Positions 2,048 to 5,620 of a stretch of 5,620 nt of DNA are shown piece by piece (position 1 is the stretch's first letter; every line of letters starts with the position of its first letter). Source of the DNA: Kiritimatiellia bacterium (GTDB lineage: Bacteria > Verrucomicrobiota > Kiritimatiellia > RFP12 > UBA1067); assembly GCA_024405255.1 (NCBI GenBank), contig JAKSOY010000268.1, positions 1 to 5,620 of the forward strand, written 5' to 3'. The notes under the pieces are model-generated. The model saw only the letters and a program-made list of their open reading frames with translations, did not search any database and had not been told where the DNA came from. Made by a program: the position numbers and the translations under genes.

Positions 2048-3583
2048 TTAGCTGCACGCGACTTTTCGCTTCGCCAGCACAAACTTCATGTAATCCATGA
2101 CGGAATCGTTCCATCCGAAGATCTGGTACACGTTCAGTTCCGCCGCCTGGTCCTCCGGAATCGGCGCGGTCATATAGGAATCTCCTCGAAGCACAAAGGC
2201 CACCGCCTTCGGATACTTGCGATGATATTCCTTCCAGGACGCCAGCCAGCCCTTTCCATACTCCATCGTATCCGTCAGGAAGACCGCGTAGTCCGCCTCG
2301 ATGCGATTGAGAAGCATGTACTTGACGCTCGCCTCCATATGCGTACCGCCAGCGACCATCGACGTGATCGCCTCGATGTGCTTCATGATCGGCTCGGCGG
2401 CAGGAACGGAGTATTCCTGCACCTCCGTGTCCCACGGGAGCACCGCCACGTCCTTCAGACCTTTCATGAAGAATCCGGCGAACATCGCGCTCACGGCGGC
2501 ATACGTCAGGACCGAAGAGCCGCCAATCGAAGACAACATCGACCCCGAGATGTCGGGGGCAACGACCCACCTCGCCTCTGCGAAGTCCGCCCAGTCGTAG
2601 GTCCTGGCATACTCGTCCATCACCTCGGCCAAGTACGCGAGCACCTTGCGATCCTTTCGCTCCAAGTCACGTGATACGGCACGATAGGCCGTGTAAAGAC
2701 GGAACGGAAAAACCTTTGCCTGCTTGAGTACCTCGACGTTCTCCTTGCTTCGGAGGAGTTCCTCCGTCAGGACATCCTCGCGGATGAACTTGGCAAGGTA
2801 CTTAACGAAACGCATCACGGGGGAACGGGCGGCAACGGCGGACCAAAGTCCCTTGTCGAACTTGTCATACCAAGCGGTCAGCGAATTGACATCGATGTTC
2901 TTCGCGCGCAGAATCTCCTCCCCCCCACGGAGATCTCCCGCCTCGACGGCCGCGACGAAATCACGATGCGCCGCCAAGTCGGGATACTCGGCATAGGCCT
3001 TCTCCAGTTTCTCGACCGTCGCGCCCTTCACGCCCGAATAGGCATTCAAGATGTAGGCATAGATCGAGTCCTCGCCCTTGAAGCGCGAGAGTCGAATGGC
3101 ATCGGCGATCTGCTTGCGGTACTTCTGCGCGTAGTAGGGGGTCGCGTTCTTCCTGATCCAGTCGGAGATCGCTTTTTTGATCGAGCGTCCGAACCCTCGC
3201 ACCGCCTTCGCCATCTCGATGAAGTCCACGAGATCGTTGCCCGTGAGAACCACCTTGCAGAACGTCTCCTGAAAGAGCGCCGAATCCTTCTTCGACAGGT
3301 AGACGAGGCCAAGAATCGGGAAGGTACGGATGAATCCTTCGTTGCGCCCCTTCACGATCGCGGCGGCGAGCTCACCGGCATCCGCGCGCTCCAACAGCGC
3401 CACGGCGTCTTTCGCCGCATCCTTGGCATTGGCGTAGAAGGAGTTGCCCAGCGTACCAGTCATCGCGAGCTGTTCCAAGAGCGTCGTATCGGACGGCGTC
3501 CAGGCCGAGAACCCCTCGGCATTGACCGTGTCCGCTCCCGCGTAGACCGTCATGGTCTTCAGATTTTCCTTCAACGTCTTCAT
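2048..3583 (-). CDS. rsr: Ro60-like TROVE/vWA RNA-binding protein
   Basis: This 511-residue protein has the layout of bacterial Ro60 orthologues (Rsr, usually about 510-540 residues). An N-terminal TROVE HEAT-repeat ring spans roughly residues 15-320. A C-terminal von Willebrand A domain spans about 335-511. The vWA metal site (MIDAS) looks intact: DISGSM at 344-349, GGTHME with T414, and LTDTMEYG with D438. Ro60 proteins bind the 3' ends of misfolded or damaged RNAs through the ring cavity. They bind Y RNAs on the outer surface, and in bacteria some Y RNAs tether Rsr to PNPase for structured-RNA decay. The start at 3583 is chosen because AAGGA (3596-3592) lies 8 nt upstream. In-frame ATGs further up lack such a site, and the extra residues do not look like the family. 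It lies downstream of rtcA on the same strand, across a structured 383-nt gap. No frameshift or missing key residue is seen. Confidence 0.95.
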   Translation of the reverse strand: MKTLKENLKTMTVYAGADTVNAEGFSAWTPSDTTLLEQLAMTGTLGNSFYANAKDAAKDAVALLERADAGELAAAIVKGRNEGFIRTFPILGLVYLSKKDSALFQETFCKVVLTGNDLVDFIEMAKAVRGFGRSIKKAISDWIRKNATPYYAQKYRKQIADAIRLSRFKGEDSIYAYILNAYSGVKGATVEKLEKAYAEYPDLAAHRDFVAAVEAGDLRGGEEILRAKNIDVNSLTAWYDKFDKGLWSAVAARSPVMRFVKYLAKFIREDVLTEELLRSKENVEVLKQAKVFPFRLYTAYRAVSRDLERKDRKVLAYLAEVMDEYARTYDWADFAEARWVVAPDISGSMLSSIGGSSVLTYAAVSAMFAGFFMKGLKDVAVLPWDTEVQEYSVPAAEPIMKHIEAITSMVAGGTHMEASVKYMLLNRIEADYAVFLTDTMEYGKGWLASWKEYHRKYPKAVAFVLRGDSYMTAPIPEDQAAELNVYQIFGWNDSVMDYMKFVLAKRKVACS

Positions 3584-3601
3584 TTGTCTTTTCCTTTCCA
3601 T

Positions 3602-3910
3602 GGAAGCCAACTGTCTCCTTGTGAGATTCCGCACGCGAGGAATGGAGCATGACTGGCATAAATCCGGAGAACATCCGGTGTCGGTTACCAGGCCGACGAT
3701 CAATAAGGAGGTTGAAACCAGTCGAAACACCTCGTTTACGAAAGAGGGGGCGAGGAATAATACGCGTGGAATTACTCAATTACTCCGGTAGGTCAATCGA
3801 GAGATTCTCAAAAGCCTTCAACCGGACCTCGGAAGTTGAACCCACAGCAGCACCTCGCAAATCGAATGTGAAAAGCAAAATTTGCCTTCACAAGGAAACA
3901 GTCGGCTTTC
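3602..3910 (-). ncRNA. Candidate structured RNA upstream of rsr (possible Y RNA locus)
   Basis: Two 23-nt arms, 3888-3910 and 3602-3624, are inverted copies matching at 20 of 23 positions. As minus-strand RNA two of the differences are G-U pairs, so 22 of 23 pair, leaving one A-C mismatch. The closed 263-nt interior contains more hairpins: 3868-3891 (10 bp with a bulged U, sharing its first bases with the outer arm), the Ro-like stem 3783-3835, GTCGG/CCGAC (3680-3697) and CCGGA/TCCGG (3663-3678). A UUCGAUU sequence matching the tRNA T-loop consensus lies near 3860, flanked by a 4-of-5 pairable stem. Bacterial Y RNAs are commonly encoded next to rsr and carry a tRNA-like module. About 309 nt is long for one, so the true RNA may be a processed part. 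Alternatives are a long structured 5' leader of rsr, or a small element with 23-bp terminal inverted repeats. The ends are set by the arms, not by mapped transcripts. Confidence 0.42.
3783..3835 (-). ncRNA. Stem with bulged C resembling the Ro-binding stem of Y RNAs
   Basis: On the minus strand AGGUC (3829-3825) pairs with GACCU (3794-3790). C3824 is bulged, then GGUUGA (3823-3818) pairs with UCGAUU (3800-3795). A lower extension CUUCCG/CCGGAG has one C-C mismatch and a bulged A. Known Y RNAs bind Ro through GGUC, a bulged C, then GA on the 5' strand and UUGACC on the 3' strand. Here the strands read GGUCCGG and AUUGACC, the second A-U pair being replaced by G-U. At least four pairs are G-U, which would be A-C mismatches on the other strand, so the structure favours a minus-strand RNA. 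The 17-nt loop is much shorter than in known Y RNAs. Confidence 0.5.
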
Positions 3911-3966
3911 AAAGATCAACGTCGCATCCGTGCGACACGCAACAAACAACATGAACCCTACATCAG

Positions 3967-4992
3967 TCAAACTTTCTGACAGTCGAACTTCCTGATCACG
4001 TCCGCATTGGTCAGATAATGCATTGTTTCCTGCTGGACGTCCAGATCCCAGGGTTCCCTGTACACATCGTCACATGCGTCATAATCATAGCCGAGCAGGA
4101 TATTGAGCGGTACGAGCAGTTGGTCGGCGAGATGCTTTTCACACGCCTTGTCGGCTTTGAGGAAGTCGCGTACCGCCGTCACCACCTCGTGGGCGACCTG
4201 CTTGCGCGACTTGTTGTAGGTTCCAACCGCCGACAGCACGACCGAGCCTCGCGCATAGTCGAGTTGCACATAGCAGTAGTTGCCAGGGCCGAACGCCTCG
4301 ACCGTGCGGATCTCGGACGTCAACCCCAATTCCGCGAACTGTCGTTGCACGATGCCGACTTCCGCCTCGGCGATCCCCGTGGGAATCGCCGAAACGACAC
4401 CTACGACCTTGCCGCCACGATACGCACCGAGTTCCGTCAATTTGAAGGAATCGATTTTCTTCGTCTTGTCGTACGGCCAGACCTTCAGCTTCACCACCCC
4501 GCCGGCCGCCGGATAGAATCCGCAGCATTCAAGCTCGGCCTCCACCTGTGCGCCCATACGGCGGAGTTCCGGCAGATACGTCTCGACCAAGAACTCCCAG
4601 ATCGGTGCGAACGGCACATGCGTTCCGCCCGTGATCGTCACCGTCGAGGGCTTGTCCGCCTTCAGCAAGACGGGAATGACCGTCTGGGCGACGAGCGTCA
4701 CGCTTCCGGCCGTACCGACATCGAACCGATAGTCGCCGCCCTTGATCGGCCCCGGCTTGAACGAGAGCTCCATCGAACCGACCGTCACGTCCGAAACCTG
4801 CGCACCGCAGATTTCCGCCACCGCCTTGACACACGTCAAATGCTGTCGCTTCAATCCCGGCTTCGAACGTCCGGCACGAATCTTCTTGAGCGCGATCTCC
4901 GTACCCGTGATCGCACTCAGCGACAACGACGTACGGAGGACTTGTCCTCCGCCCTCGCCCATCGATCCGTCAATTTCAATATAATCGGCCAT
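3967..4992 (-). CDS. rtcA: RNA 3'-terminal phosphate cyclase
   Basis: RtcA uses ATP to convert an RNA 3'-phosphate to a 2',3'-cyclic phosphate through covalent enzyme-AMP and RNA(3')pp(5')A intermediates. The product can be sealed by RtcB. The predicted protein is 341 residues (E. coli RtcA is 338). It begins with the family signature IEIDGSMGEGGGQVLRTSLS (residues 5-24). It has GFYPAAGG (158-165) where many members have GFYPAGGG, and ends with LADQLLVP and TMHYLTNADV. H325 in the last motif corresponds to the adenylated histidine (H309 in E. coli). All expected parts are present, so it should be active. The ATG at 4992 is chosen over the one at 5001 because AGAGGA (5007-5002) lies 9 nt before it but directly abuts the upstream ATG. 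A sigma54-type promoter and a structured leader precede it. A Ro60-like gene follows after 383 nt. rtcB is not adjacent on the downstream side. Confidence 0.97.
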   Translation of the reverse strand: MADYIEIDGSMGEGGGQVLRTSLSLSAITGTEIALKKIRAGRSKPGLKRQHLTCVKAVAEICGAQVSDVTVGSMELSFKPGPIKGGDYRFDVGTAGSVTLVAQTVIPVLLKADKPSTVTITGGTHVPFAPIWEFLVETYLPELRRMGAQVEAELECCGFYPAAGGVVKLKVWPYDKTKKIDSFKLTELGAYRGGKVVGVVSAIPTGIAEAEVGIVQRQFAELGLTSEIRTVEAFGPGNYCYVQLDYARGSVVLSAVGTYNKSRKQVAHEVVTAVRDFLKADKACEKHLADQLLVPLNILLGYDYDACDDVYREPWDLDVQQETMHYLTNADVIRKFDCQKV

Positions 4993-5020: not shown

Positions 5021-5096
5021 TGTCGTCGAAGGCGGGTGTCAAACCCGCAGCGGCCGGTTCGGAACTCGTTTGTTCCCCCGAGCCTCATCGACGACA
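5021..5096 (-). ncRNA. 76-nt structured leader element of rtcA
   Basis: TGTCGTCGA (5021-5029) and TCGACGACA (5088-5096) form a perfect 9-bp closing stem. Inside are a 6-bp hairpin, GCGGGT with loop TTGAC (5032-5048), and a 5-bp hairpin, GGAAC with loop AAACGA (5061-5076). The whole would be a three-way junction. The element begins where transcription from the adjacent sigma54 site should start (about 5095) and ends 13 nt before the rtcA Shine-Dalgarno. Its size and the GCGGG-7 nt-CCCGC arm recall a tRNA acceptor plus T-arm. However, no cloverleaf, anticodon arm or CCA end can be drawn. It may be a regulatory leader, a stable or processed small RNA, or a palindromic DNA element. On the plus strand the second hairpin extends slightly better (7 bp with one G-U), so RNA polarity rests on context. 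Confidence 0.5.
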
Positions 5097-5105
5097 CTCA
5101 CCATT

Positions 5106-5121
5106 AGCACAAAGCGTGCCA
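5106..5121 (-). promoter_or_regulatory. Sigma54 (-24/-12) promoter for rtcA
   Basis: The minus strand reads TGGCACGCTTTGTGCT. Against the consensus TGGCACG-N4-TTGCW only one conserved base differs (first T of TTGC). The GG and GC dinucleotides have the required spacing. The predicted start is near 5095, giving a leader of about 100 nt. E. coli rtcBA and the Salmonella rsr-Y RNA-rtcBA operon are transcribed by sigma54 RNA polymerase with the enhancer-binding protein RtcR, so the site is where family knowledge predicts it. No rtcR gene is in the window. Confidence 0.75.
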
Positions 5122-5170
5122 ACATCTTGAAATACCCGAAATTCGCAACTAACACCCCCAAAAATGGTAG

Positions 5171-5191
5171 GGCGCGCTCTCCGAGCGCGCC
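5171..5191. repeat. Perfect GC-rich hairpin, REP-like
   Basis: GGCGCGCT (5171-5178) and AGCGCGCC (5184-5191) form a perfect 8-bp stem around loop CTCCG, preceded by TGGTAG. It lacks a T tract on either strand, so it is not an ordinary terminator. Composition and shape resemble short dispersed palindromic elements. It lies about 75-95 bp upstream of the predicted sigma54 start, so a regulatory role is possible but unsupported. Confidence 0.5.
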
Positions 5192-5251: not shown

Positions 5252-5268
5252 AAGATAGTTCCTATCTT
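5252..5268. promoter_or_regulatory. Inverted repeat upstream of the sigma54 promoter, possible activator site
   Basis: AAGATAG (5252-5258) and CTATCTT (5262-5268) are perfect 7-bp inverted copies with a 3-bp spacer, centred about 165 bp upstream of the predicted rtcA start. That is a usual distance for an enhancer-binding protein of sigma54 promoters. On the plus strand three more T residues follow, so a weak AT-rich terminator is the alternative. A tandem GACATCCA duplication lies at 5219-5234. The binding protein is not known from sequence. Confidence 0.3.
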
Positions 5269-5343
5269 TTTAAAGAGTCTTCTGGCACAAGTGTGGGTCA
5301 AAAGAACCCCTCTCACGGCACCTCCAGTCAGATAACTCATCGC

Positions 5344-5418: not shown

Positions 5419-5620
5419 ATGAACCGCACAATCCAGAAACGCCTCCTCGCCGCCGGCCACGCCCTCGCCCCGAAAGAACCGCCCGCAAAACCCTTCTTCG
5501 CGTGGTTCTCGGAGGACGTGCTCGGCCTCGATTCGGAGGACTACCGCCGCGCCTTCTGGCGCGAGGTCAACCGCACGGGCCATTCGATCGGCCGCACCCC
5601 GCGCACGCTCGAGAGCTGGC
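5419..5620 (+). CDS. Unrecognised protein, N-terminal 67 codons only
   Basis: An ATG at 5419 opens a frame that runs to the right edge without a stop. It starts MNRTIQKRLLAAGHALAPKE and continues with FFAWFSEDVLGLDSEDYRRAFWREVNRTGHSIG. Codons are strongly GC-ending (CGC, GCC, CTC, GAG), unlike the AT-richer leader before it, which supports real coding. The sequence is basic at the extreme N-terminus, then acidic and aromatic. No signal peptide, membrane segment or known motif is evident, and it does not match the start of RtcR or RtcB as far as I can recall. It is divergent from rtcA across about 420 bp, so it may share regulatory DNA with it. No function is proposed. Confidence 0.7.
   Translation, partial: MNRTIQKRLLAAGHALAPKEPPAKPFFAWFSEDVLGLDSEDYRRAFWREVNRTGHSIGRTPRTLESW

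Follow-up and report, generated by a model that had tools for sequence, protein, structure and literature searches.

The closest described system is that of Salmonella, in which the tRNA-like RNA YrlA lies in rsr-yrlBA-rtcBA operons (PMC7790460, available text). YrlA consists of a stem and a domain resembling the D, T and acceptor arms of a tRNA, according to the accessible part of PMC8394870. As reported in the available sections of PMC7790460, the activator RtcR binds 5' tRNA halves ending in a 2',3'-cyclic phosphate; halves of tRNA-Trp(CCA) were among those tested, and the best binding was seen with tRNA-Leu(UAG) halves. Among the tRNAs cleaved in Salmonella are those for Trp(CCA), Tyr, Cys(GCA) and Phe(GAA), and most of the 5' fragments end at position 36. 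Fragments of YrlA, the operon's own tRNA-like RNA, were not detected, and the authors propose that YrlA, through its tRNA-like domain, might act as a competitive inhibitor of the nuclease (same sections of PMC7790460). Cleavage in the anticodon loop of tRNA-Trp(CCA) is described for VapC37 (PMC6118392, accessible part). The words leader, untranslated and transcription start are absent from the accessible portion of PMC9650030. In literature on rtc genes, Y RNAs, sigma54 and decoys, covering few of the subscription journals, no element of the kind described below was recognized from titles and the beginnings of abstracts among the matches listed.

The stretch of DNA analyzed here (the window) comprises 5,620 nucleotides from a Kiritimatiellia bacterium. 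Its transcript, predicted to start at a sigma54 promoter, would open with a 76-nt element that is very probably derived from a tRNA or mimics one. The rtcA gene, an array of structured RNA modules and a divergent rsr gene follow on the same strand. A preliminary description of this DNA had correctly placed the onset of the element at the predicted +1; it had missed the likeness of the element to tRNA and the Ro60/Rsr homologue behind the array. The features of the window are the following:

5254-5277, plus: UAS-like motif GATAG-N3-CTATC-N6-GATAG with 2 mismatches, a candidate RtcR-type activator site
5121-5107, minus: sigma54 -24/-12 promoter element TGGCACGCTTTGTGC (15-mer), matching 10 of 11 scored consensus positions
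5021..5096, minus: 76-nt tRNA-like element at the predicted +1 (5095)
5072..5083, minus: D-arm-like stretch GCUC-GGGG-GAAC with one mismatch (alignment A2)
5058..5064, minus: anticodon-loop-like remnant UUCCGAA, flanking stem lost (from the alignment)
5032..5048, minus: T-arm-like hairpin of 5 bp with the 7-nt loop UUUGACA (drawn with 6 bp and a 5-nt loop in the minimum free energy structure)
3967..4992, minus: rtcA, RNA 3'-terminal phosphate cyclase (PF01137, E 2.1e-67; TIGR03399 above cut-off)
3602..3936, minus: structured rtcA-rsr intergenic RNA with two tandem Y-RNA/tRNA-like modules (from its fold and the relatives' layout)
3936-3921, minus: 5' hairpin of the intergenic RNA
3910-3888 with 3626-3602, minus: long outer stem of the intergenic RNA
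3749..3859, minus: array module 1, GAGGUG...AUUCCUC frame
3634..3736, minus: array module 2, aligning to the relatives' modules through the invariant GAGGUG, UGGUUUCAAC and AUUCCUC blocks
2048..3583, minus: rsr, divergent bacterial Ro60 homologue (PF25045 vWA_Ro60, E 1.4e-8, above cut-off)
Downstream of rsr: AAA-ATPase_like gene (PF09820)

Promoter and fold of the element in the window

Besides TGGCACGCTTTGTGC at 5121-5107, no second sigma54 site with a score of at least 9 was found on either strand of the window, and in first-order Markov simulations a site scoring at least 10 is expected 0.085 times per window, counting both strands. The same null model was used for part of the UAS comparisons; the others relied on single-base shuffles, and dinucleotide shuffles served for the module hairpins (see below). 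Counting twelve nucleotides from the C of the -12 element, the +1 is predicted at 5095, accurate to approximately 2 nt. The element begins at 5096 with a 9-bp closing stem (5096-5088 with 5029-5021), which is present in the minimum free energy (MFE) structure. Alone, the 76-mer has a predicted stability of -37.8 kcal/mol (z -3.87), which is equaled by 0 of 200 shuffles; folded together with the downstream leader, it has z -3.14 and is matched in stability by 1 of 200 shuffles. With the leader folded along, the Shine-Dalgarno sequence AGAGG (5007-5003) is unpaired. These predictions bear out what the preliminary description had proposed for the window, namely a sigma54 start at about 5095 on the first base of the stem and a Shine-Dalgarno sequence left free behind the element. 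Its view of the element as the 5' end of the message agrees with the onset at the predicted +1 and with the recurrence of this placement in the nine members found (see below). The coincidence of the predicted sigma54 +1 with the onset of the element is confirmed.

Upstream of the sigma54 site we observed a strong G+C palindrome, GGCGCGCTCTCCGAGCGCGCC, at 5169-5191; its exact form, searched for as a shared repeat, was found in 0 of 177 loci. Farther upstream the start of a divergent ORF (5419-5620, plus strand, at least 67 aa) is without a Pfam match, and tblastn against the loci searched gave nothing for it.

A family of tRNA-like RNAs

A plain DNA search of 114 genomes with the element and its promoter yielded short matches alone, the best of which was the sigma54 site. 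Covariance models were required to find homologues. R1 was built from the single window copy, R2 from eight copies and R3 with the window copy left out. Among the individual loci searched, R1 detected a relative at 35 bits. In the 114 genomes it gave matches at E <=0.1 in nine, of which six were kept as members (G033, G063, G001, G106, G042 and G039; E 1.6e-6 to 7.4e-4). The match in G107 was dropped as an ordinary tRNA-His, and those in G053 and G035 were dropped, having no sigma54 site. One further locus, L050 in G111, reached only 19.8 bits with R1; it was retained because of its sigma54 site and is independently backed by ARAGORN and Rfam. L044 (21.6 bits) as well as L112 and L113 (23.6-23.7 bits) outscored it, yet were dropped since no site lies near the match.

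R2 was run over 345 genomes of the class and gave matches in 295 of them. Among the matches listed, eight places score at least 59.9 bits, which adds L138 in G022, and the remainder score 46 bits or less; we regard the latter as ordinary tRNAs, given the 39.5-41.6 bits of housekeeping tRNA-Trp genes. Six of the 30 R2 loci were already known, and the other 24 were scanned for sigma54 sites. The strict TGGC pattern missed the site of L138, which reads TGGT; it was seen by eye and is matched by a looser pattern (same place, L166). Among the R2 matches listed, the family has at least nine members including the window copy. All eight member genomes belong to the family of G001, and five of the eight (L106, L108, L109, L110 and L138, whose 154-aa proteins share 91-100% identity with the L106 protein) are closely related, so that few independent events are represented.

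Counted from the T of the sigma54 TGG, the element starts after 25 nt in the window and after 26 nt in the other eight members, which were accepted partly for having such a site (for L109, R1 trims the onset to 29, R2 gives 26). In the six best relatives found with the window-only model R1, the site lies at exactly 26 nt in all. Scored with R3, a model that it did not help to train, the window copy reaches 50.1 bits (E 3.6e-9 over 138 kb), above the 39.5-41.3 bits of four tRNA-Trp genes, and its onset at the predicted sigma54 +1 matches that of its relatives.

RNAalifold, unprompted, folded the eight-copy alignment into acceptor, D, anticodon and T arms, with two-sided changes in 9 of 21 pairs. 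In a count over a 20-pair cloverleaf 93.1% of 160 cells are paired and 8 pairs show two-sided changes; the members are related, so that these counts overstate independence. The paired fraction, the two-sided count and the covariation score were each reached by 0 of 500 shuffles, the measure of covariation by further pair types by 42 of 500, and slid controls of the cloverleaf stay at or below 58% paired. By computation, the members are homologues that share a covarying cloverleaf and stand at the predicted +1 of sigma54 transcripts.

ARAGORN calls six of the nine members tRNA-Trp or tRNA-Arg: tRNA-Trp(CCA) for L055, L108, L109 and L110, tRNA-Arg(CCG) for L107 and tRNA-Arg(TCG) for L050. It makes no call for L106, L138 or the window copy. 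The Rfam tRNA threshold (29 bits) is passed by three of the eight relatives; three of the other five match tRNA-Sec below threshold, and two have no match. A 7-nt Trp/Arg-type anticodon loop is closed by 4-5 bp in seven of the nine members, by 3 bp in L107 and not at all in the window copy. The loop region reads CUCCAAA, UUCCAAA or CUCCGAA in the relatives and UUUCGGG in L050. A CCA (Trp) loop is present in six of the eight, and in G033 the element and the native tRNA-Trp have the same anticodon arm.

Several features set the elements apart from ordinary tRNAs. The D loop has 4 nt, additional nucleotides stand between the acceptor-like and D stems, and 2-3 more lie between the T and acceptor-like stems (alignment A2). 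In none of the elements is the CCA end encoded, and for six relatives the cloverleaf is not the MFE structure but lies 5-12 kcal/mol above it. All seven member genomes checked (G022 left out) have, at another place, a normal tRNA-Trp gene that encodes its CCA end, which rules out that the element is the cell's own tRNA-Trp. The case for the identity of the element as a tRNA-like RNA is strong; its function we infer.

The copy in the window is diverged. It retains the closing stem, the D-like stretch and the T-arm-like hairpin, in whose loop U replaces C. The anticodon stem, in contrast to that of the relatives, does not close a 7-nt loop: two of four aligned pairs can form, and the MFE structure differs. 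Its cloverleaf has -15.6 kcal/mol compared with -37.8 kcal/mol for the MFE, a difference of 22 kcal/mol, and the window copy is thus probably not folded as a tRNA. With the Rfam tRNA model it scores 17.2 bits, below the gathering score of 29; apart from tRNA the only Rfam model matched by the element, likewise below threshold, is a microRNA, and no riboswitch or other RNA family was found there. An anticodon-linked role for this copy is doubtful.

The regulatory setting would be that of an RtcR/sigma54 regulon, to which the -24/-12 site in the window conforms. RtcR (PF06956) was matched in 21 of the 22 tested genomes with rtcA or rsr, above 200 bits in 18. For the six member genomes tested, a count that leaves out G039 and G063, the score exceeds 200 bits in G022, G033, G042, G106 and G111 and is 46 bits in G001. 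The sigma54 DNA-binding domain was detected in 11 of 11 relative genomes checked. In the window the UAS-like motif lies 132 nt from the sigma54 site. Judged by the shuffles that do as well, this motif, which we framed only after seeing the window and related sites, is strong in the window (0/200), G111 (0/200) and G063 (1/200), weak in five other element loci (7-15/200) and absent at G106 (164/200). Copies with 0-1 mismatch lie upstream of the sigma54 sites of L001, L031, L038, L039, L040, L045 and L054.

Genes behind the element and the array before rsr

The closest relatives found for RtcA and Rsr of the window have 75% identity each and belong to one family, reached through genome RUG10619. 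For rtcA of the window, the second ATG (4992) is the more likely start, judging from the starts of the relatives; the ORF is open from the first ATG (5001). Twenty rtcA matches were obtained in the 114 genomes, of which L032 and L035 were excluded as consisting of the C-terminal part alone, leaving 18 upstream regions. The element directly precedes rtcA in 0 of these 18. Eight have a sigma54 site whose predicted start puts the first codon of rtcA at about +1 to +6 (L016/L049, L019/L052, L021/L054, L022/L055 (8964), L024/L118, L031, L033 and L034/L125). These sigma54-driven rtcA transcripts would, by their predicted starts, be almost leaderless. In six regions rtcA lies behind an upstream gene, which is rtcB (PF01139) in L037, the sole case tested, the others being judged by eye, and four have other arrangements. 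A leader of rtc operons in general, as the preliminary description had considered, is accordingly too broad a claim, and a conserved rtcA leader is refuted by the 0 of 18 upstream regions. Homologous loci with a sigma54 site and no stem at +1 thus exist at rtcA, whereas the placement at the sigma54 +1 holds at other genes. Two of the ideas raised with it, a cleavable small RNA and a sensor linked to RNA ends, are still live.

In seven of the eight relatives the gene behind the element encodes a 154-aa protein. The two such proteins tested have no Pfam or NCBIfam match, and 260 homologues were found (120 listed). Genes of this family (for instance L106:6057-6521, minus strand) are preceded by sigma54 sites, and some of them stand between rtcR and rtcA. 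Among ten close loci, seven have the cloverleaf at +1. L168 has kept a 7-bp closing stem near +1 and has no cloverleaf; L170, behind its sigma54 site, folds differently, and its MFE structure shows no closing stem at +1; and L167 has the sigma54 site and no element. Four distant homologues (L172-L175) gave nothing with R2. At the G106 locus the element and rtcR are transcribed divergently, about 115 nt separate the RtcR match from the sigma54 site, and the element is followed by no more than a short ORF remnant. In G087 rtcR is followed by the divergent 154-aa gene and then rtcA; in G111 it is followed by the element, the 154-aa gene and rtcA, with other genes interspersed. From these arrangements the sigma54-element-rtcA order of the window would correspond to the head of an rtc cluster minus the 154-aa gene. 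A unit that is kept before different genes (154-aa gene, rtcA, ORF remnant) points to the RNA itself.

The rsr gene of the window has no further Pfam family, and the NCBIfam Rsr model gives 32.5 bits against a cut-off of 900. It is encoded on the same strand as the element, behind rtcA and the array. The rtcA-rsr intergenic region spans 0.38 kb, and its fold (3580-3966) has z -3.55, with 0 of 100 shuffles as stable. Rsr matches were found in 11 genomes of the class (the G112 gene is cut by a contig end; the weak G102 match was left unread). All eight rsr loci whose upstream region was read show a sigma54 site, then a 5' hairpin, a long outer stem and one to three modules, a layout judged by eye in L001, L037, L038, L039, L041, L042, L043 and L045. 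The modules of the relatives have the GAGGUG...AUUCCUC frame with a UGGUUUCAAC-type block inside. The window array, with two modules between rtcA and rsr, has no sigma54 site of its own, and none was found at the threshold used before the distant rsr of G282. Arrays apart from rsr occur in L037, L042, L043 and L044 and possibly in L047, in which no full module was found.

An anticodon-type hairpin (5 bp, 7-nt loop) is present in 9 of 21 distinct modules compared with 0.08 expected from dinucleotide shuffles, a comparison to be read with the loop rule having been set after some hairpins were seen and the modules sharing ancestry. T-loop hairpins occur in 5 of the 21 (0.01 expected), and 0 of 300 shuffles reach either count. 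The two modules of the window have neither type of hairpin. The idea that the anticodon arms of the arrays are exact copies of native tRNA arms found no support: one 17-mer, searched in the 114 genomes, matched the array alone. Between rsr and the AAA-ATPase gene we also observed a long near-palindromic tract with GGGACGGAT/GGGACCGAT-type repeats (1550-1690), which matches the MIR1862 microRNA model far below threshold.

Possible roles and comparison with known systems

What emerges is apparently a small, undescribed family of tRNA look-alikes at the head of stress-type messages in apparent Kiritimatiellae. Our preferred reading is that these RNAs of 75-77 nt open the sigma54 transcripts of an RtcR-type RNA-repair response and act as bait; we give it a probability of about 0.45. 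Upon tRNA breakage RtcR would fire its promoters, and repair enzymes and tRNA mimics would be made together. Transcription from the base of the acceptor-like stem would make 5' trimming unnecessary, and a cut behind the stem could release the tRNA-like RNA from the mRNA. The mimics might then occupy or absorb enzymes that cut or handle tRNAs; that baiting tRNA-acting enzymes is their main role is plausible, if short of even odds. The window copy, with its closing stem and T arm kept and its anticodon stem lost, may bait a partner of the T arm and acceptor stem. Alternatively, it may have decayed to a plain 5' structure, with which L168, a stem near +1 without cloverleaf, is consistent. More tentative is a wider reading that takes in the arrays. 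Here RtcR would drive an arsenal of sacrificial targets or reporters for anticodon nucleases, made up of Trp/Arg-like RNAs fused to repair mRNAs and of arrays in which one to three modules, before or apart from rsr, mimic anticodon and T arms. The anticodon-type triplets found in the loops of the mimics are CCA, CCG, UCG, CCU, CGU, GAA, CCC and UCC.

Several other explanations have to be weighed against bait. The element could be a cis-acting stem-loop that only guards or shapes the 5' end of the mRNA, slowing 5'-dependent decay or keeping the ribosome site open, with a tRNA-derived sequence recruited for its stability. The closing stem at the predicted +1, the free Shine-Dalgarno sequence, the survival of this stem beyond the cloverleaf in the window and in L168, and the retention of the element ahead of different genes would all suit such a role. 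However, the D, T and anticodon stems show two-sided changes as well, an anticodon loop on a stem of 4-5 bp persists in seven of nine members, rtcA follows its sigma54 site almost leaderless in eight relatives, and the MFE structure of L170 lacks the closing stem at +1, so that we consider a purely cis-acting stem-loop rather unlikely. A damage sensor or amplifier is less probable again. Nucleases would cut the anticodon loop of the mimic, the 5' half with its cyclic phosphate would become an RtcR ligand, and the remaining mRNA could gain a 5'-OH resealable by RtcB. The ligands reported for RtcR (PMC7790460, available sections) agree with this, as do the CCA loop in six of eight relatives and the arm in G033 that equals that of native tRNA-Trp. 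The missing anticodon stem of the window copy argues against it, and so does the failure to detect YrlA fragments in Salmonella, as stated in the same sections.

With rsr downstream on the same strand, and with a window copy closer to the YrlA layout than to a full tRNA, the element might instead be the Y RNA of the encoded Rsr, combining a Ro-binding stem with a tRNA-like end. Against this YrlA-type identity, which we regard as improbable, stands that no Rfam Y RNA model matches at E <=1, nor on the element at E <=10 (Rfam 15 may hold no bacterial YrlA model), that the closing stem is a plain helix, and that rsr is matched in only G001, G033 and G042 of the eight member genomes. The array directly before rsr, found in 8 of 8 rsr loci read, is the better candidate for a Y RNA. 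By eye, the 5' strand of some members resembles what we take to be the sequence of vertebrate Y RNA, a likeness not used as evidence. Least probable is a working, stress-induced Trp or Arg isoacceptor. The six ARAGORN calls among nine members and the three that pass the Rfam threshold speak for a functional tRNA; yet CCA is not encoded, whereas the tRNA-Trp genes of the clade encode it, the D loop has 4 nt, 2-3 extra nucleotides separate the T and acceptor-like stems, a housekeeping tRNA-Trp is present in 7 of 7 genomes checked, and the window copy has no anticodon stem.

The family suggests that cells make tRNA mimics while their own tRNAs are being broken. If the bait reading is true, a single stress regulon both detects broken tRNAs and produces tRNA look-alikes, one of them tied to the first base of a repair mRNA; if the wider reading with the arrays is true, the repair message itself carries a target of the damage. 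Because the mimics are single and separable and have defined anticodon loops, they would then offer a direct test of the roles of Y RNAs and tRNA-like RNAs beside RtcA and RtcB.

Mimicry of tRNAs by transcripts that are not tRNAs, some of them mRNA leaders, is shared with tmRNA, the T-box and the thrS operator, all named in the accessible part of PMC8394870; unlike these, the window has no ARAGORN tmRNA call and no synthetase gene. The Salmonella rsr-yrlBA-rtcBA operon with YrlA resembles the window in its RtcR/sigma54 control, its rtcA and Ro60 homologue and its tRNA-mimicking operon RNA, as far as the available texts of PMC7790460 and PMC8394870 describe it. In contrast to YrlA, the tRNA-like RNA of the family starts at the predicted +1, has no recognizable Ro-binding stem and no Rfam Y RNA match, usually includes an anticodon arm and mostly stands ahead of the 154-aa gene. 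Non-canonical cloverleafs are known from allo-tRNAs and irregular tRNA polycistrons (Mukai et al. 2017, reviewed in PMC7609411, accessible part). According to this review some have extra nucleotides between acceptor and D stems, non-translational roles are suspected, the acceptor/T stems are of the 8/4 or 9/3 type, and Ser or Ala identity is suggested. The family differs in that its T stem has 5 bp in the alignment, so that the 12-bp acceptor branch of either type is not found, and in its acceptor-like stem of 7-8 bp or longer, its Trp/Arg-type anticodons and its position at a sigma54 +1. In the trn operon and TrcR regulon of Anabaena, tRNA genes and rtcB are likewise co-induced, by translational stress (PMC10272220, available text); that system comprises 26 tRNA genes under a repressor, compared with single mimics fused to sigma54 mRNAs here.
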